A stretch of DNA of 64,000 bases, taken from assembly GCF_900116765.1 (NCBI RefSeq), contig NZ_UETC01000001.1:124001-188000 (forward strand), given 5' to 3'. This DNA comes from Jannaschia seohaensis. Its GTDB lineage: Bacteria; Pseudomonadota; Alphaproteobacteria; Rhodobacterales; Rhodobacteraceae. Below are positions 11,865 through 49,968 of the stretch, one piece after another. A model generated the notes under the pieces. The model saw only the letters and a program-made list of their open reading frames with translations. It was not told the DNA's origin and searched no databases. How positions within the stretch are numbered: position 1 is the first letter of the stretch; each line of letters begins with the position of its first letter. The position numbers were made by a program, and so were the translations under genes.

Positions 11865-12977
11865 TCATTTTCGCGCATCAAGGACATGAGTCACGAAGGG
11901 CCGAGTCGTCCCCGCATCGCGAATTCGGCCGAAGCCCGCACGCCTCAGCAGCGCGACGATCTCCTCGGGCGAGCGCGCGCGCCCGGTTCTCATCGCCATG
12001 CAATAAAAAGCAAAATAGGCGTCACCGGCCCGGTGCGGCGCGGCGCCTCCGGTCATCGGCTCGCTGACGATCAGGCGCCCGCCCTCGGGCAGCGCGGTGT
12101 GAACCGCACGCAGCAGCGCCAGCACCGTCTCGTCCGCATGGTCGTAAAGCACCCGCACCAGCGTGACAGTGTCCGCTCCCTCGGGCAGCCGGTCATCCCG
12201 GAAGCTCCCGGGCGTGATCCGGGCGCGCGCCGACAGCCCCGCCTCGGCGAAGGTCCGCGCCGCGGCGGGGGCCACGGCAGGCAGATCGAAGAGATGCAGG
12301 TGCGGTCCGGAATGGCGCGCTCCAAGCGCGGCCAGGAAGGCCCCAGCGCCACCGCCCACGTCCAGAACCTCGCTGGCCCCCGACAGATCGACGCGCGACA
12401 GGGTCTCCTCGGCGACGAGGGCTTGGCTCTCGGTCATCAGGCGGGAATAGCGCGCGGCGACATCCGGGGCCTCGGCGGCGGCGGCGCCGAAGACATAGGG
12501 CCAGAACCGCGCCAGCTCCGTCTCCTCCCCGCGCAGGACGCCCAGCGGGTCGGAGAGATCGCGATAGAGAACGGAATGGTGCGAGACCATCGCCTCCAGC
12601 CCCGGCACGCCCAGCATCGCCGCACCCCGGCGGGCCAGGGAATAGGTGCCATGGCGCTTGCAAAAGAGGCCAAGCGCCACCGCCGCATCGCAAAGCGCGG
12701 CCATACGCGCGGCGGGAATGCCGGTGCCCCGCGCCAGCGCCTCGGCGCTCTGGGATGCTTCGAACAGGCGGTGCGCCAGGCGCAGCTCGACCACGGCCCA
12801 AAGCACCTGCGAATGCACGAACCCCGCCACGAGATCGAACAGCGCCTCTCCATCCCGGCGCGCGATGCGGCGCAGGCCCGGGACGCGGGCGCAAAACGTC
12901 TGGAACCGGCGCGACGCGACGAGCCGCGTGGCCCAGCCCGCGCGGCGCGGGCGGGCCGGCGGCTCCAGCGCGGTCAT
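11865..12977 (-). CDS. crtF: Demethylspheroidene/hydroxyneurosporene O-methyltransferase CrtF
   Basis: A 370-residue SAM-dependent methyltransferase that methylates the 1-hydroxyl group of carotenoids, giving the methoxy end of spheroidene-type pigments. An N-terminal helical dimerisation domain (LVAGFVHSQVLWAVVELRLA) precedes the SAM-binding core VLDVGGGAGAFLAALGARH and the VRVLYDHADETVLALLRAVH segment. The start overlaps the crtE stop (ATGA). It ends just before the regulatory region of bchC, so crtEF and bchCXYZ-puf can form one superoperon. Confidence 0.93.
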   Translation of the reverse strand: MTALEPPARPRRAGWATRLVASRRFQTFCARVPGLRRIARRDGEALFDLVAGFVHSQVLWAVVELRLAHRLFEASQSAEALARGTGIPAARMAALCDAAVALGLFCKRHGTYSLARRGAAMLGVPGLEAMVSHHSVLYRDLSDPLGVLRGEETELARFWPYVFGAAAAEAPDVAARYSRLMTESQALVAEETLSRVDLSGASEVLDVGGGAGAFLAALGARHSGPHLHLFDLPAVAPAAARTFAEAGLSARARITPGSFRDDRLPEGADTVTLVRVLYDHADETVLALLRAVHTALPEGGRLIVSEPMTGGAAPHRAGDAYFAFYCMAMRTGRARSPEEIVALLRRAGFGRIRDAGTTRPFVTHVLDARK

Positions 12978-13843
12978 TGGGCAGGCGTTGCGATATGCGC
13001 CGGGGTCAACCGGGCAGCGGTGCGGTTCACCATGTCGGCCAGCATCGCCTCGCCCGGGCAGGCCGGAATGGAGGCGATGGCCCCCGACAGGATGTCCTGA
13101 AGACGCCGAATCGCGCCATCGACGCCATAGCTCGCCACGGCCGAGGGCCGGTCATGGGCGGCGTCCTGCCCCATGGGCTTGCCGGTCTCGGCGGAGGGTT
13201 GCAGCACGTCCAGCAGGTCGTCGGCCACCTGGAACGCCTCACCGATCCGCGCGCCGAGCTCGGTCCAGGGCTCGGCCTCCTGGCCGGCGGCGATGGCGCC
13301 CATGCGGGTAGCCGCGGTGAACAGCGCGCCGGTCTTGGCCCGGTGATAGGTGGCGAGGTCGATCTGGTCCTCGCTCTCCCAGCCCTGCCCGGCGCAGATG
13401 CCATGGGGCATCCCGGTATAGCGCGCCAGCTCCGCCGTGAGACGGATGGCCCGGGCGGGGTCGATGGCCCCCGCCTCGGCCAGCGTATCAAAGCCCTGAA
13501 CGATGAGCGAATCGCCCGTCAGCACCGCCAGCGCCTCGCCATAGGCGCGGTGGACCGAGGGCTTGCCCCGGCGGGTCGCGGCATCGTCGAAGCAGGGCAG
13601 GTCGTCATGGACCAGCGAGGCGCAGTGGATCAATTCCAGCGCGGCTCCCGCCGCATCGGACAGCGCGGGCCTGTCATCGCCGCAGGCACTGGCCACCGAC
13701 AGAAGGATCGTCGGGCGGATCCGGGCGCCGCCGGGCTTGACCGCGTGCCGCAGCGCGGCCGCCAGCTTGGGCGGCGGCAAGGCGGCGGTGGCGCGGTCGA
13801 GGGCGCGGTCGATGCTGCCTTCGATACGGGCGGAGAACGGCAT
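12974..13843 (-). CDS. crtE: Geranylgeranyl diphosphate synthase CrtE
   Basis: A 289-residue trans-isoprenyl diphosphate synthase that supplies C20 units for carotenoids and bacteriochlorophyll tails. Both aspartate-rich motifs are present: HDDLPCFDD in the first half and QVADDLLDV in the second, with the GGARIRP substrate region before them. ATG 13843 has GAGGT five bases upstream and gives a normal length; much longer in-frame extensions lie antisense to crtD and are rejected. It is divergent from crtD, with two PpsR palindromes in the 96-base gap. Confidence 0.95.
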   Translation of the reverse strand: MPFSARIEGSIDRALDRATAALPPPKLAAALRHAVKPGGARIRPTILLSVASACGDDRPALSDAAGAALELIHCASLVHDDLPCFDDAATRRGKPSVHRAYGEALAVLTGDSLIVQGFDTLAEAGAIDPARAIRLTAELARYTGMPHGICAGQGWESEDQIDLATYHRAKTGALFTAATRMGAIAAGQEAEPWTELGARIGEAFQVADDLLDVLQPSAETGKPMGQDAAHDRPSAVASYGVDGAIRRLQDILSGAIASIPACPGEAMLADMVNRTAARLTPAHIATPAQ

Positions 13844-13864
13844 GGCGGACCTCGGGGCTGGACA

Positions 13865-13882
13865 TGTCACATCAAGATGACA
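13865..13882. promoter_or_regulatory. PpsR/CrtJ-type operator 1, crtE-crtD gap
   Basis: A TGT-N12-ACA palindrome just upstream of crtE. Its distance to the second site is 23 bases start to start, about two helical turns, which suits cooperative binding. Confidence 0.75.
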
Positions 13883-13887
13883 GATGG

Positions 13888-13905
13888 TGTCAGACAGTTT
13901 GGACA
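13888..13905. promoter_or_regulatory. PpsR/CrtJ-type operator 2, crtE-crtD gap
   Basis: A second TGT-N12-ACA site between the divergent crtE and crtD. PpsR/CrtJ is known to bind paired palindromes at crt and bch promoters; both transcription units may be controlled from here. Confidence 0.75.
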
Positions 13906-13939
13906 GTTTCGCCTGTCTGTCAACTCGGACGGAGGGAGG

Positions 13940-15598
13940 ATGCGCGACAGGGTTATCGTGATCGGCGCCGGCATTGGAGGGCTTTCTGCCGCGATGCGTC
14001 TTGCCGCGCGTGGCTGTGACGTCCTCGTGCTGGAACGCGCGGCGGAGGTCGGCGGCAAGATGCGCACCCTGCCCAGCGCGGCCGGGCCGGTCGATGCGGG
14101 CCCCACCGTCCTGACCCTGCGCGACGTCTTCGAGGAGCTTTTCGTCGCGTGCGGCACCACGCTCACGGAGCATGTCACGCTCGAACCGCTGGTCGTGCTG
14201 GCGCGTCACCACTGGGCCGATGGGAGCGCGTTGGATCTCTACGCCGATCCCGAGCAGTCCGAGGCGGCGATCCGTGCCTTCGCCGGGGGCGCGGCGGCGG
14301 CGGCCTTCTACGACTTCCACCGCGATACGGCACGGCTGTTCGATGCGTTCGACGCGCCGATGATGCGGGCCAGCGCGCCGACGCTCTGGGGCATGACCGG
14401 CGTGGTCGCCCGCGATCCGAGCCTGATACCGGCGATGGCGCCGGGCCGGACGCTCGCCGGAGCGCTGGCGCGGCGGTTCGACGATCCCCGCTTGCGGCAG
14501 CTTTTCGGACGCTACGCGACCTATGTCGGCGGCGACCCGACCGCCTCTCCGGCGCTGCTCTCGCTGATCTGGCAGGCCGAATCGCGGGGCGTCTGGTCGG
14601 TCGCGGGCGGGATGCACCGGCTCGCAGCCGCAATGCGAACGGTGCTGGAGGGGCTTGGAGCTCACGTGATCTGCGACACTCATGTCGACCGGATCGAACA
14701 GACGGGCGGCCACGTCTCCGCGATCCATGCGGGCGGCACGCGCCACCCCTGCGACGTGGCCGTCTTCAACGGCGATCCGGCGGCGCTGCATCGCGGCCTG
14801 TTGGGGCCGGTCCGCCTGCCCGCCCGCGCCGTCAGCCCCCGAAGCCTCTCGGCCTTCGTCTGGTCCTTCGCCGCCCGCGTCACAGGACGACCGCCCACAC
14901 ATCACAACGTCTTCTTCGCCGATACCCCGAACTCCGAATTTCCCGAGATCGGCCTCGGCCTGCTGCCCTCGGACCCGACCCTCTATGTGTGCGCGCAGGA
15001 TCGCGGCGACGGCCCCGCGCCCGAGGGGGCAGAACGCTTCGAGATCATCGTCAACGGCCCGCCCCGGGCCGCCACCGCCCCGAACCCGGAGGAGATGGAG
15101 CAATGCCGCGAGACCACCTTCCTCCGACTGGCGCGGATGGGACTGACCTTCGACATCACCCCGGAAACGGACCGGCTGACCACGCCGGAGGGCTTCGCGA
15201 CCCTGTTCCCGGCCTCGGACGGATCCCTTTACGGGCGGAGCCCGCACGGGACCCTGGCGGCCTTCGCCCGGCCCACGGCGCGGACCGCGCTGCCCGGGCT
15301 TTATCTGGCGGGGGGCGGAACGCATCCGGGAGCGGGGTTGCCGATGGCGGCCCTGTCCGGCAAGCTCGCGGCCGAGGCGATCTGCACGGACCTCGCTTCG
15401 ACCTCGCCGTCCCGCCGGACGGCTATGCCTGGTGGTATGTCGACGGGATCAGCGCCTGCGGCACCCGCGCCGTCTCGGTCATCGCCTTCATCGGCTCCGT
15501 CTTCTCGCCCTGGTATCGTTGGAGCGGACGGCGCGACCCCGACGACAACGTCTGCATCAACGTCGTCACCTACGGCCGGGGCGGTCGCTGGACGATGA
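13940..15598 (+). CDS. crtD: Methoxyneurosporene/hydroxycarotenoid 3,4-desaturase CrtD
   Basis: A FAD-dependent carotenoid desaturase that introduces the 3,4 double bond. The N-terminus is the dinucleotide fold VIVIGAGIGGLSAAMRLAAR, and the C-terminal family signature GGGTHPGAGLPMAALSGK begins at about residue 457. GGAGGGAGG precedes ATG 13940. Family members end about 20 residues after this signature (near 15400). Here the frame stays open for about 66 more codons of low-complexity Ser/Pro/Ala sequence to TGA 15598, overlapping crtC by over 200 bases. The tail may be an unusual extension, or an indel may have removed the normal stop. Confidence 0.85.
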   Translation: MRDRVIVIGAGIGGLSAAMRLAARGCDVLVLERAAEVGGKMRTLPSAAGPVDAGPTVLTLRDVFEELFVACGTTLTEHVTLEPLVVLARHHWADGSALDLYADPEQSEAAIRAFAGGAAAAAFYDFHRDTARLFDAFDAPMMRASAPTLWGMTGVVARDPSLIPAMAPGRTLAGALARRFDDPRLRQLFGRYATYVGGDPTASPALLSLIWQAESRGVWSVAGGMHRLAAAMRTVLEGLGAHVICDTHVDRIEQTGGHVSAIHAGGTRHPCDVAVFNGDPAALHRGLLGPVRLPARAVSPRSLSAFVWSFAARVTGRPPTHHNVFFADTPNSEFPEIGLGLLPSDPTLYVCAQDRGDGPAPEGAERFEIIVNGPPRAATAPNPEEMEQCRETTFLRLARMGLTFDITPETDRLTTPEGFATLFPASDGSLYGRSPHGTLAAFARPTARTALPGLYLAGGGTHPGAGLPMAALSGKLAAEAICTDLASTSPSRRTAMPGGMSTGSAPAAPAPSRSSPSSAPSSRPGIVGADGATPTTTSASTSSPTAGAVAGR

Positions 15599-19999: not shown

Positions 20000-21541
20000 T
20001 CAGGCCTGGCGCGTCCACCAGGCCCGAAGCGCGTCTGCACCGCCCGCGCCGTCCTCGTTCCAGATCGTGACGGGCGGGTCATCGCGCGCGGGTGCGGCCT
20101 TGATCGTCAACCCGTCGCCGTCGAACGAGGTCAGGCGCATGGTCGTCGGCCAGGGCGATGCCGCCGCCTCTTCGGTGAGAAGACGCACGGCGATCCGCTC
20201 GCCCTGGCGCAGGGCGGCATGGGCCGCCTCGGGCGTGGCATCGCCCGCGAAGACGCAGCCCATGGCGAGGTTCGCCGCCAGCTTGTCGAGCTCCCCCAGG
20301 AGCATCAGCGGCGCCGCAGCCACCGGGCGCAGGTCCTGCGGATTCTCGGGACAGGTCTGCCAAGCGCAGGACAGGGGGGCGTCCGGCCCGGTCAGGGCGC
20401 GCAGCGCCCCCAGCGGCGCCGGTCCAGGGCGGTCGAACATCTCGAAGCAGGCCTTGAGGATCGTCACGCAGGCCCCCGCAGCCAGAGCGGGGGCGATGCC
20501 GCGCGTCGCGGACGGATGCGCCATCGGCAACAGCGCGTTCGTCTCTTCCCCCAACGGACCCAGGGCGCCGCGATCGGGCCAAAGCGCGTTCTGATAGGCG
20601 TTATGCGCGGCCACCCGCTGGAGCAGACCGCGCTCCGACAGAACCTCCGCCATCCGGGAGAAGCCCTCGCCCGCCATACCGAGCGCCCGATCACGGTCGC
20701 CGGACCAGGCCAGGGCGAGCCCGGCAGCAAGCGCTTGGGGACCCAGCGACCGGCGGTCGTGCCGATCCGTGCGGGCCGCCCGAGCTGCGCGGCTCGCGGC
20801 CTCGGTCACCAGGGACAGAATATGGGACGGACCGAACGGCGCATCCGCGTCCGAGGCGGCACCGGAACCCGACAGCCCGGCCCCGAGCGGGATCCCGGCC
20901 TCCAGCAGAACGAGGCAGGCCGTCAGCGGCGCTTGAAACGGCGCGTCCAGGCAGACCCGGCTGACCAGATCCCTCGGCGTGGCGACGAAATGCGCGAAGC
21001 GCTCCAGCCGGGGTGTCACTGCGCCGCGCCGATCGCGCGCATTCTGCCACCCGGCCCAATCCGTCCCATAGTCGAGACGGCTGAGATAGCCCGCGACATG
21101 CTGGCTGAGTCGTTGCGTGCCATAGCTGACCAGGCCGGACCGCACGCCAGCACCGGCCTCTCTCGGATCGATGCCACCGTCCCGCTCGACGCCCCCGCCG
21201 ATCAGGAGAAGCTGCGAGACATAGGGTCCCTGACGCGCCCCATCCATGCGCCCGCGCAGCAAGCTGTCTGGGGCCACCCCGTCCGGATCGCCCGGCATCA
21301 TGCGCGCCAGCGCCGCCACCTGCGGGTCCGTCCCCCACTGCGCGAATTCGCAATCCCGCAGCAGCCCCGCGCCGTAGAGCGCCGCCATGTCGGAAATGGC
21401 GCTCTCCGAACTGGGGGCGACCCCGCTCTGCGACAGCACACCGCCCAGCGCATGGAGCTGGGGCGCCCTGGCGCCTGCCGCCTCCTCATCGCGCGCCCCG
21501 TCCGGGGCCGGGCCTCGATCGGAAACGAGTCTCAAGGTCAT
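20000..21541 (-). CDS. Vanadium-haloperoxidase-like protein lacking the vanadate ligands (pseudoenzyme)
   Basis: A 513-residue protein with no signal peptide or membrane segment. Family landmarks of bacterial vanadium haloperoxidases are visible: GPYVSQLLL (residues 105-113), FVATPRDLVSRVCLDAPFQA (185-204), GPSHILSLVTEAASRA (237-252), LLPMAHPS (337-344), AGACVTILKACF (355-366) and LDKLAANLAMG (418-428). The vanadate ligands appear replaced: Pro351 where GHATVAGACVT-type proteins have the histidine, Cys429 for the Arg of GRNMAGVHWR, and Ala435 for its histidine. So the fold is probably kept without catalysis. It is divergent from a second, intact family member, and a scaffold or regulatory role is possible. 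Confidence 0.72.
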   Translation of the reverse strand: MTLRLVSDRGPAPDGARDEEAAGARAPQLHALGGVLSQSGVAPSSESAISDMAALYGAGLLRDCEFAQWGTDPQVAALARMMPGDPDGVAPDSLLRGRMDGARQGPYVSQLLLIGGGVERDGGIDPREAGAGVRSGLVSYGTQRLSQHVAGYLSRLDYGTDWAGWQNARDRRGAVTPRLERFAHFVATPRDLVSRVCLDAPFQAPLTACLVLLEAGIPLGAGLSGSGAASDADAPFGPSHILSLVTEAASRAARAARTDRHDRRSLGPQALAAGLALAWSGDRDRALGMAGEGFSRMAEVLSERGLLQRVAAHNAYQNALWPDRGALGPLGEETNALLPMAHPSATRGIAPALAAGACVTILKACFEMFDRPGPAPLGALRALTGPDAPLSCAWQTCPENPQDLRPVAAAPLMLLGELDKLAANLAMGCVFAGDATPEAAHAALRQGERIAVRLLTEEAAASPWPTTMRLTSFDGDGLTIKAAPARDDPPVTIWNEDGAGGADALRAWWTRQA

Positions 21542-21686
21542 GATCCACCCTCATGCGGCGGCCTGATTCGGCCCCTTCGACCCTATGTCGCAGGAGGGGC
21601 GTGATTTTTGCGTGAACCGGGCCGTCTCTGGGCAGACGAAGCCGATAACGGTGGTAGGTCCTGACCAAGGGGAATCGGGAGACACC
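21542..21686. promoter_or_regulatory. Divergent promoter region of the haloperoxidase-like locus
   Basis: A 145-base gap between the divergent starts. It must contain promoters for both directions. I find no good TTGACA/TATAAT pair and no clear direct repeats for the nearby SARP-like regulator. GGGAG sits six bases before ATG 21687. Confidence 0.4.
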
Positions 21687-22742
21687 ATGCCTTTTGCCAA
21701 TGCTCAGAACGCGCAGAATGCGCAAAATGCCCAGAACGCACAAAACGCTCAGAACGCGCAGAACGCCCAGTCGGAGCTGAGCCATGCGGGCCAGGGCACG
21801 TCCTCCCGGCTCAGCGCCGCGCTAGACGCGGTCGCGATCGCGCTGCCGGGCCAGGTCCCTGCCACCGCCGTGGCCCAGCCGATCCCCTCCCCCGATCCCG
21901 AGCGGGCGCTGCGCCGTCTGAATGCCCGCCACCGGGAGATCCTGCTGGTGCAGGAACTGGTCGACGGGATCACCGTCTCCGACGCGTCCGGCGCGGCCCA
22001 GGTCACGACGCCGCAAGGCAGCGCCACGCTGACATCGCCGTTCCACGGTCTCTCCGGCGCGGCGTTGGAGACGGCGGCGCAACAGGCGCTGGCCCCGATC
22101 CTCGCCCGCCGCTGGCTGCGGGCCGAGCGGATGAACGAGATCCTGGAGCAGCAGTCGGACCTCATCAGCTTTCTGGCGCTGGTCCATCCGATCTCGGCGG
22201 CGACCCATCCGATGACGATGACGCTTCTGTCCGCGATCCACGCCGCGACCACGCAGATCACCGTGCAGGCCAAGGCGCTGCTCTCGGTCTCGCGGCCCGC
22301 CGATCTGAGCTCCGCCGTCGCGCCAGTCATCCAGACGCCCGCCCATAGCGCCGCCCCCAGCGGCCATGCCACCGAAGCCTTCGGCCTGGCCTTCGCCCTG
22401 GAGGCCCTGATCTTCGGCGGCGCCAGCCGGGAATTGCGCCTGATCGCCGCCCGCATCGAAGAGAACCGCGTCGTGGCGGGCGTCCATTACGAGCATGACG
22501 GCTATATGGGACGGACCCTGGCCGCGCTGCTGGCCCGGGTCTTCGCCGACCGCATGGGGCTCGGCGCGACGGCGCCCGCGCCCGCCGACATGTGGCCCGG
22601 CTCCGGCGAGGACGGCGTGCTGGGCTCGAACCATGCGGGCCAGTCCGGGCGGCCTGCCATCGTTCAGAGCCAGACCGCGGGCGTGGGCGACACGCGCGTC
22701 GCGCTCCTGACGCGCCTCGCCCTGGCCGAAATCGGGGGCTGA
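21687..22742 (+). CDS. PAP2/vanadium-haloperoxidase-type protein with N-terminal Asn-Ala-Gln repeats
   Basis: A 351-residue soluble protein. The complete PAP2/haloperoxidase phosphate-vanadate signature is present: K196-x6-R203-P204, PSGH at 224-227 in TPAHSAAPSGHATEAF, and R261-x5-H267-x3-D271 in NRVVAGVHYEHD. It could be a phosphatase or a vanadate-dependent haloperoxidase; the surrounding sequence looks more like the latter. Residues 5-28 are eight perfect Asn-Ala-Gln triplets. No signal peptide is seen. ATG 21687 follows GGGAG, and three bases separate its stop from the protease start. It is divergent from the degenerate paralogue. Confidence 0.78.
   Translation: MPFANAQNAQNAQNAQNAQNAQNAQNAQSELSHAGQGTSSRLSAALDAVAIALPGQVPATAVAQPIPSPDPERALRRLNARHREILLVQELVDGITVSDASGAAQVTTPQGSATLTSPFHGLSGAALETAAQQALAPILARRWLRAERMNEILEQQSDLISFLALVHPISAATHPMTMTLLSAIHAATTQITVQAKALLSVSRPADLSSAVAPVIQTPAHSAAPSGHATEAFGLAFALEALIFGGASRELRLIAARIEENRVVAGVHYEHDGYMGRTLAALLARVFADRMGLGATAPAPADMWPGSGEDGVLGSNHAGQSGRPAIVQSQTAGVGDTRVALLTRLALAEIGG
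21699..21770 (+). repeat. Eight tandem 9-base repeats encoding Asn-Ala-Gln
   Basis: Eight 9-base units of the form AAYGCNCAR encode eight Asn-Ala-Gln triplets. The third positions vary between units (GCT, GCG, GCC, GCA; CAG, CAA), so the peptide is conserved more than the DNA, which argues for selection on the protein rather than recent slippage. Confidence 0.95.
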
Positions 22743-22745
22743 GCA

Positions 22746-24476
22746 GTGCTGCGCCTGACCGACGCGGCCTCGGCGCCCCTGGACGACCTGCCGGAAGAGG
22801 CGCTCGCCAGCTATCTCGAACTCTGCCTCGCCCGCGACCCCGACGCGCCGCTGTGCCGGCTGCATCGCGGCGCCGACGCCGTGACACTGGCGCCTCTCGA
22901 CCAGAGCAGCTTGCGCGGGGACGTCGAAGCCTGTCTCGCAGGCGCCGCGCCGTCTGAGGACGGCGCGGTCGGCGCGGATGTCCTGGCGGTCGCGCCCGGC
23001 TTTCCCGTCGGAACTCTCTCGGTACCGCTGCCAGCCGCCCGCAGCGCCGTGCCGGGGCCCGAGACCCCCGCCCAGATCGGCCTGATCGACGCGGGCATCG
23101 CGTTCTGGAACCCGAACATCCTCAATGTCGAGATCCGCTCGGTCGGCCATCTCGCGCCCGCGCAGGCGGGGGGAGTCGAACGCCTCGCCAGCAGCGAGAT
23201 CGATGCGGCCATCGCCCGAGGCACCGCGCCCGAGGGCGACCGGGCCAATCGCCGGATGCTGGCGGCCGCCTTCCCCGGCTCCGTCCATGCGCCCCAAGCG
23301 GGACGCCCGCCGCTGGTCCGCCCCGGACAGGTCGCCCACGGGACCGCGATGCTCGACGCGATCGCCCGCACCGCGCCGCCACGCAGCCGGCTGCACGCGC
23401 TGGAATTGCCGCGGGCGGTGCTGCGCGACTCGACCGGCATCCGGATGCGCGCCGTCCTGCCACTGGCCCTGGCCGCGATGGCGGACATGGCGGCGCGGGC
23501 GACCCAGCCGAACATGCCGCTGCGGCTGGTCGTCCTGCTCTCCTACGGGTTTCCCGGCGGGCCGCAAACCGGCGCGGACCCGGCCTTCCTGCGCGCGGTG
23601 ACCGCCGTGCTCGATGCGCTGGCCGCGCGCAACATCCTGCTGGAGCTGATCCTGCCCACGGGCAACCACCTGCAAGGCCAGAGCGTCGCGCATCTGCCCG
23701 ACCCCGAGGGCGGCGCCCGCCCGCCCCTGACCTGGCGCATCCTGCCCGGCGACCACTCCAACAACCGGCTGGAGCTGTTCCACGCGCCCGGCCGCCCCGC
23801 GCTGACCCTGACGGCGCCGGATGGGACGGAGGTGACGCGGGCCGAGGGACGCAGCTTCGCCCTGCTCAGGGACGACGACCGGATCGTCGGGCTGATCTAC
23901 ACGCGGCGCGCCTCGGACAGCCTGGAGAGGACCGAAGTCATCCTGTCGGGCCGGGGACCGGACGGCGCCGGACCGGGCGCGCCCTTCGGAGCCTGGCGCG
24001 TCGCGCTGGGCGGCCCGGGGCCGGCCCGGGCCTATGTGCGACGGGACGATTCAGGCTTCGAGGACGACCGCGCTGCGCCCTTCCGCCGCTCCTGGTTGGA
24101 AGATCCGGCCTATCGGCCGCGGGACGCCATGGGCCTGCCCGGCACGGATGACAGCAGCCACGCGGACAGCCTCGTGCGCCGGGCGGGGACGATCTCGGTG
24201 CTCTGCACGGGGCGGGATCCGAGGCTCCGTTCGGTCGGGGCGCACTGGTCCGGCGGGGATGGCACCCACCCCGCGGTCTACGGCGGGCTGGAGGCGGACT
24301 CCGCCGACGCGCCCGTCGCGCGGCTTGCCGTGGACGGGCCGGGGCCGTTCATGGGCATGCCCCTGCGCGGCGACGGCAGCGACCGGCTGTTCCGGCTGCG
24401 CGGCACCTCCATCGCGGCGGCACTCCATGCCGGCGAGCGCGCCGCGCCTCAGGCCCCGACCAGCGCCTCGGCATAG
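22746..24476 (+). CDS. Subtilisin-like serine protease (S8 family), no signal peptide
   Basis: A 576-residue protease-like protein. The catalytic triad is readable: Asp115 in IGLIDAGI, His198 in VAHGTAMLDAI and Ser555 in LRGTSIAAALHAG, with the oxyanion Asn307 in LPTGNH. The Asp-His spacing (83 residues) is long. There is no secretion signal; about 105 N-terminal residues precede the domain and might be a pro-region. Translation appears to start at GTG 22746, three bases after the preceding stop, so it is coupled to the PAP2/haloperoxidase gene. The 3' end overlaps the convergent regulator by 28 bases. Confidence 0.8.
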   Translation: MLRLTDAASAPLDDLPEEALASYLELCLARDPDAPLCRLHRGADAVTLAPLDQSSLRGDVEACLAGAAPSEDGAVGADVLAVAPGFPVGTLSVPLPAARSAVPGPETPAQIGLIDAGIAFWNPNILNVEIRSVGHLAPAQAGGVERLASSEIDAAIARGTAPEGDRANRRMLAAAFPGSVHAPQAGRPPLVRPGQVAHGTAMLDAIARTAPPRSRLHALELPRAVLRDSTGIRMRAVLPLALAAMADMAARATQPNMPLRLVVLLSYGFPGGPQTGADPAFLRAVTAVLDALAARNILLELILPTGNHLQGQSVAHLPDPEGGARPPLTWRILPGDHSNNRLELFHAPGRPALTLTAPDGTEVTRAEGRSFALLRDDDRIVGLIYTRRASDSLERTEVILSGRGPDGAGPGAPFGAWRVALGGPGPARAYVRRDDSGFEDDRAAPFRRSWLEDPAYRPRDAMGLPGTDDSSHADSLVRRAGTISVLCTGRDPRLRSVGAHWSGGDGTHPAVYGGLEADSADAPVARLAVDGPGPFMGMPLRGDGSDRLFRLRGTSIAAALHAGERAAPQAPTSASA

Positions 24477-26047
24477 CCCGTCTTGCGCAGGGTCAGCAGC
24501 GGATAGTCGGGGCGAGTGAGATGCGAGATCAGGAAGCCCGGCTCATGCCGCGCCAGCTTTTCGGCATGAAGCCGCGCCGCCGTCCGGTCCCCCCGGATCA
24601 GATCCAGCGCCACGAGGTAACGCAGGGCGGGCCGGAACGCCCGGTTCTGGGCATGGGCCGCCCGGGCGGAGCGGTGGGCCAGTTCCAGATCGCCCATGCC
24701 CAGCGCCGTCAGACAGACCTCCATGTCCCAGGCATAGGCGTTGGGCAGACCGTCGGCGCAGAGCCGCCCGGCCTGCGCCAGCCGGTGCGCCTCGGCCCGC
24801 TCGCCCGAGATCAACGCGACCTGCGCCGCCGCATAGAGCGCATAAGGATTGCGGTCGCAGGCCCGCAGCCCCGCCTGCGCCAGATAGGCGGCGCGGTCGA
24901 CATCGCCCTCCAGCTCCAGCGCGACACGGGCCGCGAGCGAGGCGATGAGCGGGTTGTCGGGACGCAGGTCGAAGGCCTCCTCGGCCAGGGCCGACGCCTC
25001 GGCCGCGATCGGGCCCCGGTCGATGAATTCGAGGCTCCGGGTCAGCCCGGCGAAGCCCCGCCAGGCCAGGGCCAGCGGCAGCGCGTCCCCGGTCGAGAGC
25101 GCCGCAAGCTCCGTCTCGGCCAGACGGAGCTGCTCCCGGTCGCCGGTGAAGAGGCGCGCCGCAGCCCCCTGCAACGCCATCACGCCGGAGCGATCGGTCA
25201 GCCGATAGGCCCGGAGCCGCGCGCTGATCTGCGAAATCGCCGTCGAGGCGAAGCCGGGCAGCCGGTGCCCCTCGGCGATCTCGCGCAGGTCCAGCGGCAT
25301 CCGCGCCCGGCCCGACCAGATGAAGCGCCGGTTGGCATCGGCCAGCGCGCGCAGATGCACCGTCCAGCAGCCGTCCTCCTCCACCGCCGCGGCGAGTTCG
25401 ATCCTCAGAAGGCGCGTGCCGCGCAGAGCCGAGGGCGGGACGGGCTCATGCGCGTGGTAGATGTCGGTCACGCCCTCGGCGGCAAAGCGCGAGGCCAGGT
25501 GATCCGCCAGCGTCGCCGTCAGATAGTCGGAGTCCACGTCACCGGGTCCGGGCAGCAGGACGATCTCGACGCTGGTCCGATCCGGCGGCCGCGCGCGGGG
25601 CGCCTCGGGATGGCGCGGCGCGTCGTCCTCGCCCGCGCGCACCTCCCGCAGCCAATCGTCGAGCGCCGGGTCGACATGGTCGAGCGTCTCCAGCAGGTCG
25701 GCACCGCTCTCCGCATCGCCCCGATCCAGCCGGACCTCTTGGGACAGGGACACCACCAGCGCATCCCGCGTGTCCAGGAGATCGGCATCCGGGCCCAGCG
25801 CCTTGCGCAGGTTGCTCAGCGCGCGCCGCAGGCTGGCCTGCGCCTGGGTGGCGGAGCGGGACGACCAGAGCGTGCCGCGCAACGCCTCACGCGTGCGCGT
25901 CCGCTGCGGCGCGAAGGCCAGCAGCGCGAGAATCGCGCATTCCTTTCGCCGCGCCGGGGTCAGATCCGTGCCGTCGGACCGCAGCACACGAAAACGGCCG
26001 CGCGCGTATAGGGTCACCCGGACGGTGCCGGACATCGCCTTCGCCAC
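24449..26047 (-). CDS. SARP-like transcriptional regulator with TPR-type C-terminus
   Basis: A 532-residue protein. Residues about 8-95 form an OmpR-type winged helix of the kind in SARP/BTAD activators (ILALLAFAPQRTRTREALRGTLW, then QASLRRALSNLRKAL). A middle region (about 130-250) resembles the flavoprotein-like or receiver-type linkers of such proteins but is unassigned. The C-terminal half is a run of helical repeats rich in Ala/Leu/Arg, consistent with TPRs. GTG 26047 has a purine-rich AAGGAAAGG upstream; ATG 26035 is an alternative. It converges on the protease gene, and regulation of the locus is inferred from adjacency. Confidence 0.75.
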   Translation of the reverse strand: MAKAMSGTVRVTLYARGRFRVLRSDGTDLTPARRKECAILALLAFAPQRTRTREALRGTLWSSRSATQAQASLRRALSNLRKALGPDADLLDTRDALVVSLSQEVRLDRGDAESGADLLETLDHVDPALDDWLREVRAGEDDAPRHPEAPRARPPDRTSVEIVLLPGPGDVDSDYLTATLADHLASRFAAEGVTDIYHAHEPVPPSALRGTRLLRIELAAAVEEDGCWTVHLRALADANRRFIWSGRARMPLDLREIAEGHRLPGFASTAISQISARLRAYRLTDRSGVMALQGAAARLFTGDREQLRLAETELAALSTGDALPLALAWRGFAGLTRSLEFIDRGPIAAEASALAEEAFDLRPDNPLIASLAARVALELEGDVDRAAYLAQAGLRACDRNPYALYAAAQVALISGERAEAHRLAQAGRLCADGLPNAYAWDMEVCLTALGMGDLELAHRSARAAHAQNRAFRPALRYLVALDLIRGDRTAARLHAEKLARHEPGFLISHLTRPDYPLLTLRKTGYAEALVGA

Positions 26048-26118: not shown

Positions 26119-26994
26119 TCAGCCCAGCAGCGGCAGCAGCATCACCAGGCTGATCGCCACGATCACCGCGCCGCCCAGAAGGTGCAGCACCCCCGCCGTC
26201 ACCTGAAACGAGGCCGTCTCGCCGGAATGGACGAGCTGGCGCGCGACCACGCCGGAGGCCGCCACCGACGCATTGAACGCCGCTGTGCCGAGCCCCATGG
26301 CGAGAACCGCGAGAATGCCGACCATCATCACATCGAGCCGCGCCGCGATCGCCAGAAGCAGCAACGCGCCCGAGCAGGGCCGGACCGCCACGCTGAAGAC
26401 CAGCGCCGCCGAGTCCCGCCAGGAAGACAGTTCCGCCACCGCCTCGGGCGCGGGGCCATGGGCATGGCCGCAGGACTGGCAGACCGGGGCGGGCGCGCGC
26501 GCCTGAGCCACCAGGCGCATCCCCCGCGCCACGATCACGCCGCCGATTGCGGCGAAGAGCGCATAGCTGAGCGGCGCGAGCCACTCCTCGACCACATCCA
26601 CCGCCGCCGTCGAGCTGAGCAAGGACACCCCGCCGACCAACGCCGTCACCAGGAGGATCGCCATGAGCGCCTGCCCGAGCGCGGAGACGACCGAGAGCGC
26701 CACCATCCGCCGCAGCGTCGCCTGGGTCGCCAGCGCCGCCCCGCCCAACAGGATCTTCCCATGCCCCGGGCCCAGCGCATGGACGAAGCCATAGGCGAAG
26801 GTCGCGGCACAAAGCGACAGGATCGCCGTAGGGCTGCCGCTTCGCACGGCGCGCAGGCTGCGGGCCATCGCGTCCTGGAACTCCCGCTGGGTGGCGACGG
26901 CCCAGGCCATCACCGCGTCCCACGGAACCAGCAGCGCGGCGAGCGCGAGCACCGCCAGCGCGCCGAGCGAAACGGTCTGCCGCGTCAGTTGCAT
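26119..26994 (-). CDS. NicO/RcnA-type nickel/cobalt (or other metal) exporter
   Basis: A 291-residue membrane protein of the NicO family. It contains the family motif FVHALGPGHGK in an early helix, a second RPCSGALLLL motif, and a His/Cys-containing loop CQSCGHAHG (near residues 172-180) that likely binds metal. About six to seven transmembrane segments are apparent. Its start overlaps by 10 bases the stop of the upstream DUF1007 gene, its usual partner. The metal is not defined by the sequence; nickel and cobalt are the usual family substrates. Confidence 0.85.
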   Translation of the reverse strand: MQLTRQTVSLGALAVLALAALLVPWDAVMAWAVATQREFQDAMARSLRAVRSGSPTAILSLCAATFAYGFVHALGPGHGKILLGGAALATQATLRRMVALSVVSALGQALMAILLVTALVGGVSLLSSTAAVDVVEEWLAPLSYALFAAIGGVIVARGMRLVAQARAPAPVCQSCGHAHGPAPEAVAELSSWRDSAALVFSVAVRPCSGALLLLAIAARLDVMMVGILAVLAMGLGTAAFNASVAASGVVARQLVHSGETASFQVTAGVLHLLGGAVIVAISLVMLLPLLG

Positions 26995-27611
26995 GTCAGC
27001 AGCACGGTCTCGGCAAAGGCTTCGCCCACATTGGGGTCTTCCGGCATCTCTTCCTGCGAGAGCGCGGCCAGTTGCGCGCGCAGATCCATCGCGCCGTCGT
27101 CCAGATCCGGCTGGATCACGTCGACCGCGCAGCCTTCGGGCGCGACGGCCTCGGTGGTGTAGGCGTAGTAATAGCCGGGGTCGTAGATCTCCACGCGCAG
27201 CCCATCAGCCGGGCGCGGCGCTTCGAAGGGCAGCGTGAAGGCGACCCAGATGCGCTGATCCTCCTCGCCCGCGCTCGCATGGCGGGGCGCGGCGAAACCC
27301 GGTCCCTCGCCGATATGCAGATCGCCGGTATAGCCCGGCGGCCAATCCGTCTCGCCCGCGGCGATCATGGCGAAATCCACCGCGTCCAGCACGCCGTCGC
27401 GGTCCGGGTCGAGATCCAGGATCTCCCAGAGCGTGAGCGAGGTGAACGCGTCGTAATGCCAGCGCACGGTCAGGGCCGTGACGTCGCCCTCCGCGTTGCG
27501 CTCGAACCCGATGGTGGTGTCGGCGAAGACATGCGGATGCGCCGCCCCCGTCCCGGTCGACAGACCGAGAGCCATGAGCCCCGCCATTCCGATCCCCAGC
27601 GCTCGAATCAT
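26985..27611 (-). CDS. DUF1007-family periplasmic protein, NicO partner
   Basis: A 208-residue secreted protein: hydrophobic signal peptide (IRALGIGMAGLMALGL) with cleavage near GAAHPHVF. The AHPHVF start of the mature protein is a hallmark of the DUF1007 family and offers histidines for metal. A DLDPDRDGVLDAVDF segment looks like an EF-hand-type loop. Cysteines occur near the C-terminus. ATG 27611 (AAGGGA upstream) was preferred to a longer in-frame start that would add an implausible N-terminus. It is coupled with NicO and probably escorts or senses the exported metal. Confidence 0.85.
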   Translation of the reverse strand: MIRALGIGMAGLMALGLSTGTGAAHPHVFADTTIGFERNAEGDVTALTVRWHYDAFTSLTLWEILDLDPDRDGVLDAVDFAMIAAGETDWPPGYTGDLHIGEGPGFAAPRHASAGEEDQRIWVAFTLPFEAPRPADGLRVEIYDPGYYYAYTTEAVAPEGCAVDVIQPDLDDGAMDLRAQLAALSQEEMPEDPNVGEAFAETVLLTCN

Positions 27612-27710
27612 CTTCGGTCCCTTTCGACGTGTCCCGGACATAGGTGTCTCACCGTTTGTGCAAAAGCCTCCGCTCAGGCGCAGCCCCGCCACAGGCGCCC
27701 GACCGCCGGT

Positions 27711-28109
27711 TCAGCCCGAGGCGATCTCGCCGCCCAGCGACTCGAGGATCGGGCAATCGGGCCGCTGATCCCCGGCGCAGGCCCCGATCAGATGCGCCAG
27801 CGTCTCTCGCATCTCGCGGAGATCGGCAATCCGGGCGTCGATCTCTCCCAGCTGCGCCTCGGCGATGGCCTTCACCTCCGCACTGGAGCGCGCCTCATCG
27901 TCCCAAAGCGCCAGCAGCGTGCGGCACTGCTCGATCGGAAATCCCAGGGACCGCGCACGCCCGACGAAGTTCAGCTTGTGAATGTCCGCGTCGGAGAAGC
28001 TGCGATAGCCGTTCGCGGAGCGCTTCGGCCGGACGAGATCGATTTCTTCGTAGTAGCGGATCGTCTTGGCGGGCACGCCGGTGCGCGCGGACGCATCGGA
28101 AATATTCAT
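27711..28109 (-). CDS. cueR: Copper-responsive MerR-family regulator CueR
   Basis: A 132-residue MerR-type activator: MNISDASARTGVPAKTIRYYEEIDLV is the winged helix, followed by a long dimerisation helix. A C-terminal loop CAGDQRPDC (Cys-x7-Cys) is the Cu(I)-binding signature of CueR rather than of mercury or zinc relatives. GGGAGG precedes ATG 28109. It is divergent from copA, with its presumed operator between them. Confidence 0.92.
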   Translation of the reverse strand: MNISDASARTGVPAKTIRYYEEIDLVRPKRSANGYRSFSDADIHKLNFVGRARSLGFPIEQCRTLLALWDDEARSSAEVKAIAEAQLGEIDARIADLREMRETLAHLIGACAGDQRPDCPILESLGGEIASG

Positions 28110-28121
28110 GCGGGACCTCCC

Positions 28122-28142
28122 TTGACCTTCCAGCAACTGGAA
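28122..28142 (+). promoter_or_regulatory. CueR operator/promoter of copA
   Basis: TTGACC (28122-28127) is followed by the dyad TTCCAG-CAA-CTGGAA (28128-28142), the position and shape of MerR-family operators that sit in a long spacer. A -10 about 19-20 bases downstream is poor (CATCTG), typical of promoters needing activator-induced DNA twist. The dyad is 42 bases before copA. Confidence 0.7.
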
Positions 28143-28184
28143 CCCCCATCTGCATAGTCAAGTCAAGCACGGCGGAGGATTCCC

Positions 28185-30659
28185 ATGTCGGACCAGAGCA
28201 TCACCCTTCCCCTCTCGGGGCTGACCTGTGCCGGTTGCGCCGGGCGGGTCGAGCGGGCGCTCGCCAAGGTGCCCGGCGTGTCCGCGGCCGCCGTGAACTT
28301 CGCCACGGGCAAGGCGACCGTCGACGGCACGGCGGGGCGCGCCGATCTCGTTCAGGCGGTCGAGGCGGCAGGCTATGCCGTCCCCTCCCGCACGGTCACG
28401 CTGACCATCGAGGGCCTGAGCTGCGCCGGATGCGTCGGCCGGGCGGAGCGGGCGCTCGCCGCCGTCGACGGTGCGGACGAGGTCTCGGTCAACCTCGCCA
28501 CCGGGCGCGCGACCGTCACCGGCTGGGCCGAGGAAGCGGCGCTGATCGACGCCGTCACCGCCGCCGGGTATCCAGGGCGGCCAGTTGCGGACGCGACCAC
28601 GCCCGCGGACACGGGCGACGATGAAGCCCAATCGATGCGCCGCCGCGCCGGGCTGGCGGCCCTGCTGACAGCGCCTGTCTTCGTCCTGGAGATGGGCGGG
28701 CATGTCTTCCCTGCCTTCCACCACTGGATCGCCGGGACCATCGGCATGCAGACCAGCTGGGTGATCCAACTGGTGCTCACGACCCTGGTCCTCGCCGGCC
28801 CGGGGCGCGTCTTCTACGCCAAGGGCCTGCCCGCCCTGCTCCGGCGGTCGCCCGACATGAACGCGCTGGTCGCGCTGGGCACGACGGCGGCCTATCTCTA
28901 TTCACTCGTCGCGACGCTCACCCCGGGCGTGCTGCCGCCCAATAGCGTCGCCGTCTATTACGAGGCCGCCGCCGTCATCGTGACCCTGATCCTGATCGGC
29001 CGCTGGCTGGAGGCCCGGGCCAAGGGCCGCGCCTCCCAGGCCATCGCGCGGCTGGTAGGACTGCGCCCGGCCACCGCGCATGTGCGCCGCGCCACCGGGA
29101 TCGAGCAAACCCCTGTCGCAGCGCTCGCCCCCGGGGACATCATCGAAATGCGCCCCGGCGCGCGCTTTCCGGTCGATGGGATCGTCACCGAGGGCACCGG
29201 CACCGTCGACGAGTCGATGCTCACCGGAGAGCCTCTGCCCGTGGCCAAAGCGCCCGGCGACCCCGTGACCGGCGGCACGGTGAACCAGACCGGCGCGCTG
29301 GTCTTCCGCGCGACGGCGGTCGGAGCCGACACGCAACTGGCCGCGATCATCCGTCTGGTCGAGGCGGCGCAGGGCGGCAAGCTGCCGATCCAGGCGGTGG
29401 TGGACCGGGTCACGGCCTGGTTCGTGCCCGCCGTGCTGGCCATCGCGGCGCTGACCTTCGCGCTCTGGCTGACGCTGGGCCCCGACCTCGCCCATGCGGT
29501 GGTGGCGGGCGTCGCCGTCCTGATCGTCGCCTGTCCCTGCGCCATGGGGCTGGCCACGCCGGTCTCGATCCTGGTGGGCACGGGGCGCGGGGCCGAGATG
29601 GGCGTGCTGTTTCGCAAGGGCGCGGCGCTGCAACGGTTAAGCGAGGCCCAGGTCGTCGCCTTCGACAAGACCGGGACCCTGACCGAAGGGCGTCCGCGCC
29701 TGACCGATCTGGAGCTTGCGCCGGGCCAAGACCGCGAGACGGTGCTGTCGCTGGTCGGCGCGGTCGAGGCGCGCTCCGAGCATCCTCTGGCGCGGGCCCT
29801 GGTCGAGGCGGCGCAGGGGCTGCCCCTGCCCGAGTTGTCCGATTTTGAGGCCGTTCCCGGCATGGGCGTCTCGGCGGAGGTGGCGGGCCGGCGCGTCCAG
29901 ATCGGCGCGGCGCGCTACATGGCATCGCTCGGGTTCGAAGCCGGTCCCTTGGCCGAAGCCGCCGACCGCTTCGCCGCCGGCGGCGCGACGCCGATCTTCG
30001 CCGCGGTCGAGGGCCGGGTCGCCGCCGTTCTGGCGGTGGCCGACCCGATCGCCGACGCCACCCCCGCCGCGCTGGCCGCGCTGCGCGCCCGGGGCGTGCG
30101 GCTGGCCATGATCACCGGCGACGACCGCCGGACGGCGCAGGCGGTGGCGCGGGGCCTCGGCATCGACGACGTCGCCGCCGAGATACTGCCCGACGGCAAG
30201 GCGGCGGCTGTCGCCGATCTCCGCGCGCGCCACGGTGTCGTGGCCTTCGTCGGCGACGGCATCAACGACGCGCCCGCCTTGGCCGAGGCCGATATCGGCG
30301 TGGCGCTCGGCACCGGCACCGATGTCGCCATCGAGGCGGCCGAAGTCGTCCTCGTCTCCGGCGCGCTGACGGGCGTGCCCAACGCCCTGGCCCTTTCGCA
30401 GGCGACGCTGCGCAATATCCGGCAAAACCTGTTTTGGGCCTTCGCCTATAACGCGGCGCTGATCCCCGTCGCGGCGGGCGTTCTCTGGCCCGCCTTCGGG
30501 CTGCAACTGTCGCCGATGCTGGCGGCGGGGGCGATGGCGCTGTCATCGCTCTTCGTCCTGGGCAACGCCTTGCGCCTGCGCGGCTGGCGGCCCGCGGCGC
30601 GGAGCCAGCAGACCCCAGCGCCGGCGGCGGTCCCGGCGGGGCAGGCGCGCCCCGCCTGA
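28185..30659 (+). CDS. copA: Cu(+)-exporting P1B-type ATPase CopA
   Basis: An 824-residue inner-membrane copper pump. Two N-terminal heavy-metal-binding domains carry CAGC motifs (residues about 15-20 and 83-86). These are followed by transmembrane helices, the actuator TGEPLPV, the ion-path CPC motif in [13 protein letters not shown], the phosphorylation site DKTGTLTEG, the SEHPLARAL motif, [16 protein letters not shown], and the Cu-specific YN (FAYNAALIP) and MxxSS ([15 protein letters not shown]) helices. ATG 28185 has GGAGG upstream. It is expected to be induced by copper through CueR. Confidence 0.96.
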
Positions 30660-40511: not shown

Positions 40512-41089
40512 GCGGCAATCTCCCCTCGGGTCACCAGATAGTCGATCAGCGGCAGCAGCGGCAGACCCAGCACGCTGAAGAAATCGCCGCGCACCTGGTG
40601 GAAAAGCCGGGCGCCCTCCCCCTCCAGCGTATAGGCGCCGGCGGAATGGCGGATCGTGTCCCAGTTCCGGGCCACGTAATCGTCGAGATAAGCGGGCGAG
40701 GCGGGGCGCATGACCATGGTGACGTCGCCGACATGACGCCAGACTGGGCGGCCATCCTCCGCCAGGACGGCGGCGGAATGCAGCTTATGCGATCCCCCGC
40801 GCAGCCGCATGAGTTGGGCCACGGCCGCCTCGGGGCTGGCGGGTTTGCCCAGCAGCTCTCCCTGATGGTCCAAGGTCTGGTCGCAGCCGAGCACGAGCCC
40901 CGGACGCCGCACGCGAAGCGCCTTGAGTTCCGCCAGGGCGTCCGCCACCGCGCGCGGCCCATGTCCCTCGGCCAGGAGCGCCTCGCGCACGCTCGCCTCG
41001 TCGACCCGCGCGGGGACGGCTTCGAAGGGGATCGCGGCGTCGGACAGCATCTTCTGCCGGGTGCGGGAGGAGGAAGCGAGGGTCAGCAT
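40508..41089 (-). CDS. Maf-family nucleotide pyrophosphatase
   Basis: A 193-residue Maf protein, hydrolysing non-canonical or certain canonical nucleoside triphosphates. The N-terminus MLTLASSSRTRQKML has the Ser/Arg phosphate-binding motif. VLGCDQTLDHQGELLGKP is the Asp/Gln-containing active-site region, and GAYTLEGEGARLF the third. I chose ATG 41089 over the longer frame because this gives the standard start. It is the gene bordering the predicted origin. Confidence 0.92.
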   Translation of the reverse strand: MLTLASSSRTRQKMLSDAAIPFEAVPARVDEASVREALLAEGHGPRAVADALAELKALRVRRPGLVLGCDQTLDHQGELLGKPASPEAAVAQLMRLRGGSHKLHSAAVLAEDGRPVWRHVGDVTMVMRPASPAYLDDYVARNWDTIRHSAGAYTLEGEGARLFHQVRGDFFSVLGLPLLPLIDYLVTRGEIAA

Positions 41090-41468
41090 GTGGATCGTTT
41101 CGTGAGCAACCGGTCGGGAAACCCTGTCGAGAGGGCGGGGAGAAATGGCCCCTCGCGGGCGTTGGGGGAGAACTGGCCCGTTCCTAGAGGGTTCTGGCAA
41201 AGTTATCCATGGGGAGGAATGGCGTTCCGCGGGACGCTCCGAGCGGTCGAGCCGATGGCTTATTCCCTGAGTCGCTCACAGATCCGTCCCCGGGTCAAAG
41301 CCCGTCAAATCGGACTGAATCGCGGGATATCCACCGACATGCCTGGGCGATATCTCCCGTGTGGACAGATTTGAGGACAGGATTCCATCCCCGTTCTTCA
41401 ACCGTCCATCTACAACTATCTTCCTTTCTTCTATTTTTCTAAGAGGGAGGCCGAGAAGTGGAGGTGAG
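41089..41468. other. Predicted chromosomal replication origin (oriC)
   Basis: A 379-base gene-free gap between maf and hemJ, the position of the origin in Caulobacter and relatives (hemE/hemJ on one side, maf-aroE-coaE-dnaQ on the other). Four 7-of-9 matches to the DnaA box TTATCCACA occur: 41089-41097 and 41360-41368 (minus orientation), 41203-41211 and 41327-41335 (plus). A pyrimidine-rich, AT-richer stretch at about 41396-41445 may be the unwinding region. Flanking genes mostly point outward. No perfect box is present. A rival origin elsewhere cannot be excluded. Confidence 0.65.
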
Positions 41469-41900
41469 ATGGACCTATATCTTTGGGCCAAGGCGCTGCA
41501 TGTCATCTCGGTGATCGCGTGGATGGCTGGCCTGTTCTACCTGCCCCGGCTCTATGTCTATCATGTCGAACAACAGGACGCCGTCCCCGAGATGGTCCCC
41601 GTGCTGGAAGTGATGGAGCGGCGATTGCTGCGGGCGATCATGACCCCGGCGATGATCTCGTCCTGGCTCTTCGGGTTGATCATGGTGGGGATGGGCGGCG
41701 TCGATTGGGGCGCGGTCTGGCCCTGGCTGAAGGCCGCCAGCGTCCTCGCCATGACCTGGTTCCACTTCTGGTGCGCGGGGCAACGAACCGCGTTGGCCGC
41801 CGGTCACGCGCAGGTCAGCGGCCGAGGATACCGGATGATGAACGAGGTGCCGACGGTGCTGATGATCGTCATCGTCGTCTCGGTCATCGTCAAGCCGTGA
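41469..41900 (+). CDS. hemJ: Protoporphyrinogen IX oxidase HemJ
   Basis: A 143-residue membrane protein. MDLYLWAKALHVISVIAWMAGLFYLPRLYVYH carries the conserved histidine and Arg/Tyr residues of HemJ, the oxidase used where HemG/HemY is absent. Four hydrophobic segments are visible, and AMTWFHFWCAGQR holds further conserved residues. GGAGGTGAG just before ATG 41469 supports the start. It makes protoporphyrin IX for haem and bacteriochlorophyll, so it connects this region with the pigment cluster. Confidence 0.93.
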   Translation: MDLYLWAKALHVISVIAWMAGLFYLPRLYVYHVEQQDAVPEMVPVLEVMERRLLRAIMTPAMISSWLFGLIMVGMGGVDWGAVWPWLKAASVLAMTWFHFWCAGQRTALAAGHAQVSGRGYRMMNEVPTVLMIVIVVSVIVKP

Positions 41901-42045
41901 GCGGCGGGCGCTGGTTGACAGCGTGATCCTGGGCGCTTAGCTGACGAGTGCACGGAGAGCCGTCCTGGCTCGGACCCGTTTTCCCGATTTTCAAAATGGC
42001 GCCGCCCCGATGGGCCCGCGCGCCTCCCCGACGGAGCTTCGCCCC
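41901..42045 (+). promoter_or_regulatory. rho leader region
   Basis: 145 bases before the preferred rho start contain a perfect TTGACA (41915-41920) without a convincing -10, a GAGCC/GGCTC hairpin (41957-41971), and T-rich stretches just after it. This could be the hemJ terminator or an attenuator in the rho leader. Confidence 0.45.
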
Positions 42046-43359: not shown

Positions 43360-43371
43360 CGGCGCGATGCC

Positions 43372-44655: not shown

Positions 44656-44657
44656 GA

Positions 44658-49951: not shown

Positions 49952-49968
49952 TGTCAGACGCTCGGTTT

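Follow-up and report, generated by a model that had tools for sequence, protein, structure and literature searches.

What, if anything, holds together a haloperoxidase-like enzyme, a subtilisin-like protease and a tetratricopeptide repeat (TPR) regulator encoded side by side in the alphaproteobacterium Jannaschia seohaensis? The locus in question lies in a 64,000-nucleotide stretch of contig NZ_UETC01000001.1 (hereafter the window) and comprises four genes, which we call A to D (Table 1). A preliminary description, made from the letters of the window alone, proposed that they form a compact four-gene module. The enzyme, the protease and the regulator are indeed conserved together, and far more widely than was then guessed, but the module consists of three genes and excludes A. 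Moreover, the feature that defines it went unmentioned: the N-terminus of B reads MPFA-(NAQ)8, i.e. a perfect tandem array of a tripeptide. By computation we find that B, C and D constitute a conserved module, that selection acts at the protein level on the arrays, and that the repeated unit covaries with the sensor part of D. On balance, these comparisons lead us to consider it probable that the TPR superhelix of D recognises the array of B as its cognate ligand, that B, C and D would form a signalling module, and that the protease is its likely switch.

Judged by its profile match, B belongs to the PAP2 family of enzymes, and its catalytic residues are conserved. It scores 28 bits against the PAP2 profile (cut-off 27.2), and K196, R203, S225, H227, R261 and H267, residues common to acid phosphatases, are invariant in an alignment of 33 sequences; the set K, R, (S)GH, R, H is what we take to be the oxyanion-binding motif of vanadium haloperoxidases. 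Among solved folds, class A acid phosphatases come closest (7f17 and 7f18, E = 5e-5 for 7f17), the first haloperoxidase homologue appearing only at E = 0.14. Thus, of the earlier label “intact PAP2/haloperoxidase”, the PAP2 match and the kept catalytic residues stand, but the nearest structures are those of acid phosphatases, and nothing was found pointing to the halogenated or quorum-quenching product that had been suggested. Likewise, the open reading frame (ORF) given for B ends correctly at 22742, but its most likely start is 21687, after GGGAG, and not 21585. In the structural model of B, residues 1-37, which include the array, have a predicted local distance difference test (pLDDT) score below 50, and the array is probably flexible. 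A second (NAQ)n protein was sought in the same genome as a possible target; the (NAQ)3 pattern is confined to B.

How widespread is this arrangement? Searching 248 genomes of the family with C gave matches in 9, among them its own genome. Among the first eight neighbourhoods, B was present in seven, each time with an N-terminal tandem array and each time with a different unit. The B profile matched 130 of 341 genomes in a sample of the order and 22 of 398 in one of the phylum; C matched in 9 of 385 genomes of a class sample. We assembled 201 loci, mostly from Proteobacteria: the window, L011-L018, 100 loci from the order picked by hand from B-profile matches (mostly high-scoring ones), 80 named loci, which are the best 80 of at least 519 relatives in at least 593 stretches encountered in a scan of the collection, and 12 plasmid loci. 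B is present in 200 of them; L233 lacks C, and L014, L223 and L231 lack D, these absences of C and D all falling at contig ends. All three genes occur together in 196 of the 201 loci, and the neighbourhood of these three is thus conserved in relatives. An array, defined as at least three copies, is found in 194 of these 196, with 91 different units when units are counted after rotation. Three-residue units dominate (182 arrays), followed by units of four (nine arrays), two, five and six residues (one each), and copy number lies between 5 and 12 in 156 arrays. Of the two array-less loci, L100 has two copies only, and L087 encodes a B without the SGH motif and a C split into two frames. Of the B cores, 186 are distinct and eight are duplicates. 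The named hosts include Roseobacter-group genera, Microvirga, Bradyrhizobium, Rhizobium, Thalassobaculum, Paraburkholderia, Polaromonas, a Chromatiales symbiont and one Anaerolineae metagenome-assembled genome. Copies of the module are carried by 35 plasmid records, of which 11 are conjugative (Phaeobacter gallaeciensis DSM 26640, for one, has a plasmid copy), and several different modules can reside in one genome (e.g. L122-L124). Public annotation of the plasmid genes reads phosphatase PAP2 family protein, S8 family serine peptidase and, mostly, winged helix-turn-helix (wHTH) domain protein. B, C and D are thus a widespread three-part bacterial module. No description of it was found in the literature searched, a search from which subscription papers were largely out of reach; the component families are known, whereas the array, the diversity of its unit and the pairing of array and TPR protein are undescribed in the literature found. 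To our knowledge, there is no system in which an enzyme carries arrays of a repeated, freely varying unit that serve as a receptor ligand. As a separate observation, L015 contains a single ORF (12598-14541) consisting of a SARP-like wHTH head, a stretch resembling what follows the array in B, and an S8 domain, possibly a deletion fusion or an assembly artefact.

Is the repeat a property of the DNA or of the peptide? Internal units are perfect in 1791 cases and imperfect in 38, the latter confined to 34 of the 194 arrays. Codons were compared in 92 arrays with four or more copies from the first 109 loci, with the expectation set by the codon usage of the same locus: agreement is 0.28 between neighbouring units and 0.37 between any two units of an array, against an expected 0.44, and the value for neighbours falls below expectation in 83 of the 92 arrays. 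Since the peptide repeat is nearly perfect and the codons are less alike than expected, selection acts on the peptide. Repetition of the DNA is avoided, either by selection or by quick loss of exact repeats, and repetition of the peptide is kept. Whatever the partner of the arrays, they are a clear instance in which selection keeps a peptide repeat near perfect and its DNA unrepetitive. In pairs of loci with at least 95% core identity (pairs that are not independent), the unit is the same in 52 of 52, copy number in only 27. With greater divergence, units change residue by residue along the B tree, as in NAL/DAL, SGV/TGV and GGAN/GGAD. A slippage hotspot that generates short repeats whose peptide is irrelevant would explain why Phaeobacter strains carry (NSF)5, (NSF)6 or (NSF)7, but it would leave neighbouring codons no less alike than random draws and would hardly preserve the unit itself in close pairs; we therefore regard a DNA-level artefact as scarcely credible. 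A further count, of 19 close pairs with no amino-acid changes and 230 synonymous ones over 468 array codons, is not used as evidence of purifying selection because the pairs were chosen for having the same perfect array. Among the matched regions of the partner proteins, one C sequence out of 194 satisfies the array criterion and no D sequence out of 194 does; the sole C match with an array of its own, in L224, has (TPA)7.

Which partner, then, might read the array? D scores 23.6 bits against Trans_reg_C, below the cut-off of 26.2, and 24 of 39 D relatives match TPR_19 at E = 0.01. The BTAD family is absent from the profile matches of D and its relatives; a wHTH is present in the model of D (mean pLDDT 90.7; predicted template modelling score 0.72), where it spans residues 1-94 and is followed by a TolB-like α/β domain (157-251) and a TPR superhelix (262-531). 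By fold, D is closest to the CadC periplasmic domain, then to TPR superhelices. Each TPR consists of an A and a B helix, and in TPR proteins generally the A helices line the concave groove. Covariation with the unit was assessed by column in 182 tripeptide loci (effective number 91) and by partial distance correlation in 142 dereplicated loci. For the three unit positions, 6, 4 and 5 of 381 columns exceed z = 3 in D, 4, 3 and 2 of 289 in B, and none of 443 in C. Given the B and C distances, unit distance correlates with the TPR part of D (rho = 0.186) and with its middle, TolB-like region (rho = 0.178; 0/200 permutations each), and is uncorrelated with the HTH (-0.004, 47 columns) and the next D segment (0.017, 53 columns). 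C as the main reader of the unit was tried and rejected on the absence of any C column above z = 3; a rotation-free distance and a small subset of loci do give it some signal.

These results also bear on homotypic assembly, where self-sticking arrays would build filaments of B and the covariation with D would be a by-product of shared descent. Perfect copies of a changing unit suit self-association, and N, Q, G or S abound in many of the units. But charged units exist, e.g. AGR, NGR, HAK, GKE and NAE, and the unit tracks the sensor part of D beyond what the B-core and C distances account for; we judge such assembly very unlikely.

Within the TPR superhelix of D, the A helices stand out when all loci are taken together. 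Above z = 2.5 lie 16 of 83 columns in the A helices versus 3 of 85 in the B helices, at similar entropy (1.56 and 1.67). In partial Mantel tests, the A helices retain a correlation of 0.139 given the B helices, the B core and C (0/200), the B helices retain 0.031 given the A helices (24/200), and C retains 0.007 (86/200). Among 3085 close pairs, for which no permutation was made, the values are 0.398 for the A helices versus -0.093 for the B helices. At B-core distances above 0.55, the three nearest neighbours share 0.31 of the unit when chosen by A helices, 0.24 by B helices, 0.25 by C and 0.16 at random. The same tests were made for the 132 loci (100 dereplicated) whose D is of the window type, the other 50 of the 182 having another D N-terminus. 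There, A helices (0.126), B helices (0.128) and TolB-like region (0.114) all correlate with the unit (0/500 each), the HTH gives 0.053 (11/500), and C gives -0.005 given the D helices and B. By column the A helices again lead (10 of 83 versus 3 of 85, p = 0.006), with residues 332 and 336 again at the top.

Several observations weigh against the array as a ligand read in the TPR groove of D. Descent was controlled through distances only. Columns of the B core are among the top covarying ones, and the TolB-like part of D correlates with the unit too. At B-core distances above 0.6, A helices reach 0.254 versus 0.231 for B helices (p = 0.045), and the class of the third residue is predicted as well by C as by the A helices at two of three thresholds. 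A rotation-free unit distance leaves C correlated (0.092, 0/200). In window-type loci, the A helices are not ahead once each helix set is conditioned on the other and the rest (A 0.034, 26/500; B 0.052, 6/500), and in the 50 other loci they contribute 7 of 84 columns, the B helices 8 of 85, with C columns reaching z = 3. Part of the A-helix preference seen over all loci may hence reflect the split between D types. Finally, 12 of the 194 arrays have units of 2, 4, 5 or 6 residues. The preference for A helices is thus not robust: in the window-type subset, it holds by column and not by distance. Covariation of the unit with the TPR/TolB region of D is well supported; the concave TPR groove is, from these alignments, a likely site, though not a settled one.

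Residue 332 of D (D332) is W, F or Y in all 12 loci whose unit has K or R as its third residue, and R or K in 34 of 37 loci with an aromatic third residue. The pattern follows clades, with exceptions in ENW, SGW and one GGF locus, and it is not followed where K or R stands elsewhere in the unit (GKE, GKM, RAQ) or in the four-residue GGGR. Complementarity at D332 is therefore suggestive only.

What might the protease do? C of the window alone has no Pfam match, but 29 of 41 C relatives match Peptidase_S8 (PF00082) at E = 0.01, and the Asp, His and Ser triad (Asp115, His198 and Ser555, also numbered D114, H197 and S554) and the oxyanion Asn (N306) are invariant in the 41 C sequences; C is a divergent S8 protease. 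A self-processing site in which C or D itself would mimic the unit was tried and rejected, three-mer matches numbering 59 versus 52.7 in shuffled sequences for C (97 loci) and 30 versus 35.0 for D (96 loci). In the mechanism that we propose, the extended, repetitive array would lie in the concave groove of the TPR superhelix of D, with perhaps about one short unit per TPR, and unit and receptor would have coevolved into a private lock and key for each module. Binding of the array could tie B to D and set the output of D, in a direction that we can only surmise; this output would be transcription in the window and the activity of a cyclase domain in some relatives. A protease, of one type or another, is present in most loci seen and is a natural candidate for the switch. 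We would guess that it acts on the complex by cleaving or trimming B or its array; any trigger that is sensed would likewise be a guess.

Alternatively, the protease might cut the array into many copies of a short signal peptide to be read by the TPR domain of D, as in RRNPP systems. The identical copies, the neighbouring protease and a TPR protein covarying with the unit would all fit such a precursor, and tandem propeptides cut by proteases are described for RRNPPA systems (PMC11343458). But the array forms part of a conserved enzyme, no signal peptide or export signal was seen in A-D (N-termini read by eye, with no predictor run), and units of two or three residues are shorter than the 5-10 residues given there for RRNPPA peptides. 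Furthermore, no protease was recognised next door in L257-L259 and L265, 4 of the 12 more distant loci inspected. We consider a peptide precursor unlikely.

Those distant loci belong to a set of 20 weaker B-like loci from the order, fetched as intended negative controls. They cannot serve as such because 19 of the 20 have an array and all 20 a D homologue; C profile matches number only two, both weak. In L263, L266, L268, L269, L271 and L273 another S8-like protease adjoins (by Pfam for L271 and L273, by eye for the rest), and in L275 and L276 a papain-like one (L275 at E = 0.002, below the cut-off; L276 by eye, with no Pfam match). The N-terminus of D varies as well, with cyclase domains in L257 and L271 and a wHTH in L018. 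The constant core is thus the array enzyme and the TPR protein; the protease and the output domain of D vary in distant relatives. We also inspected 40 loci with D homologues, chosen mostly apart from B although a few were known to stand beside a weak B, counting arrays of at least four copies (six for dipeptides). The 32 without a B-profile match contain no array, except one HE x6 stretch carried by an unrelated ORF at a distance of about 3 kb, nor do three with B matches of only 20-28 bits. Five have B matches of 66-85 bits, with arrays in three (GQ x14, LHKS x6 and NK x8) and none in L304 and L310. An array thus adjoins D in only three of the 40 loci, each time in a B-like ORF, and two further B-like ORFs are array-less. 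The own genome encodes three further D homologues (L279, L280 and L281), which have neither B nor array neighbours.

A patchy spread (B in little more than a third of the order genomes sampled), different modules within one genome and copies on conjugative and other plasmids are also what a conflict module might display, in which D would hold the effector enzyme B inactive via the array and the protease would free B on infection. But PADLOC returned no family matching A-D, and a known defence family was rejected on this result; phage records give just two matches, both partial (29 and 34% of B); and the output of D is transcription or a cyclase, not a simple inhibitor fold. A role in defence therefore seems distinctly unlikely.

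Table 1 Features of the locus in the window.
Feature	Position	Strand	Remarks
A, dead vanadium-bromoperoxidase homologue	20000..21541	minus	513 aa; adjacent gene outside the conserved module
B, PAP2/acid-phosphatase-like enzyme with N-terminal tandem tripeptide array	21687..22742	plus	ATG after GGGAG; 351 residues
(Asn-Ala-Gln)8 array of B	21699..21770	plus	eight perfect units, scrambled codons
C, divergent S8 (subtilisin-type) protease, by sequence	22746..24476	plus	GTG start
D, regulator with predicted wHTH, TolB-like domain and TPR superhelix	24449..26047	minus	model and Pfam
TPR superhelix of D	24455..25264	minus	part of D covarying most with the array unit

Gene calls bear out the four positions given in the preliminary description, as well as the GTG start of C three bases 3’ of B and its convergent overlap of 28 bases with D. 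This order, with B and C convergent to D, is the rarest of four, occurring at 9 of 194 loci. A was correctly recognised as a dead haloperoxidase: it matches solved vanadium bromoperoxidases (5lpc, E = 5e-35) and has lost the catalytic motifs, the SPMHPSYGAGH and GRDWAGVH stretches of 5lpc (His and Arg motifs), which hold the catalytic residues. A is a single-copy gene in its genome, and a genome scan with A alone as query found no relative. A-like neighbours occur at 6 of 109 module loci, the window included, in a single-sequence search, and none is among the matches listed for the 80 named loci. As a part of the module A was accordingly rejected; it is a casual neighbour. Near the array modules of L092 (182-2425) and L144 (9058-11055) lie bromoperoxidase-like ORFs with apparently intact GAGH motifs and no Pfam match. 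Elsewhere in the window, the region adjoining the module (26119-30659) encodes a NicO-type metal transporter and, by eye, DUF1007-like, MerR-like and copper P-type ATPase genes, and positions 41001-50000 have a GC content of 0.60-0.64 compared with about 0.69 just outside, possibly an acquired segment.

If the array is indeed read by D, the 91 units in this sample would amount to a sizeable natural collection of repeat peptides, each matched to its repeat protein, in which the rules of modular peptide recognition would be directly testable and which could supply orthogonal parts for design. They would also provide an input for TPR regulators and cyclases for which we know of no signals, and a peptide-TPR signalling logic in Gram-negative bacteria. 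More tentatively, we can imagine a natural modular code, in which the TPR superhelices of regulators read enzyme-borne arrays of one short unit, one per TPR; many species would keep private pairs, and one input design (array enzyme and protease) would feed different outputs (transcription, cyclic nucleotide). So general a code is possible, though we would not yet expect it.

How does the module compare with known systems? The core of B has the fold and the conserved catalytic residues of class A acid phosphatases and vanadium haloperoxidases (the PAP2 superfamily), from which B differs by its N-terminal array and conserved partners. D resembles CadC and the SARP/BTAD one-component regulators in having a wHTH followed by α/β and helical sensor domains, the CadC periplasmic domain being its best fold match; it differs in its long TPR superhelix, in the lack of a membrane helix in the model (by eye) and in its fixed company of an array-bearing enzyme and, mostly, a protease. 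Designed superhelical repeat proteins bind four to six tandem tripeptides, one unit per repeat, according to Wu et al. 2023 (PMC10115654). They share with the proposed pair the reading of tandem tripeptides by a helical repeat protein, but their scaffold and targets are artificial, whereas B and D would be a natural pair with a predicted fit. The nearest kind of known system is RRNPP peptide sensing (PMC11343458), in which a TPR receptor with a regulatory output adjoins its peptide source, proteases take part and some propeptides are tandem. Here too, the TPR protein D adjoins the array-bearing B, whose role as a signal peptide would be putative. But in place of a small secreted propeptide with a short mature pheromone, the array sits inside a 351-residue enzyme (export judged by eye), and no identical internal duplication is reported in PMC11343458. 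The present module, found mostly in Proteobacteria, is set apart by an array of near-identical units of two to six residues, carried inside an enzyme and varying from species to species.

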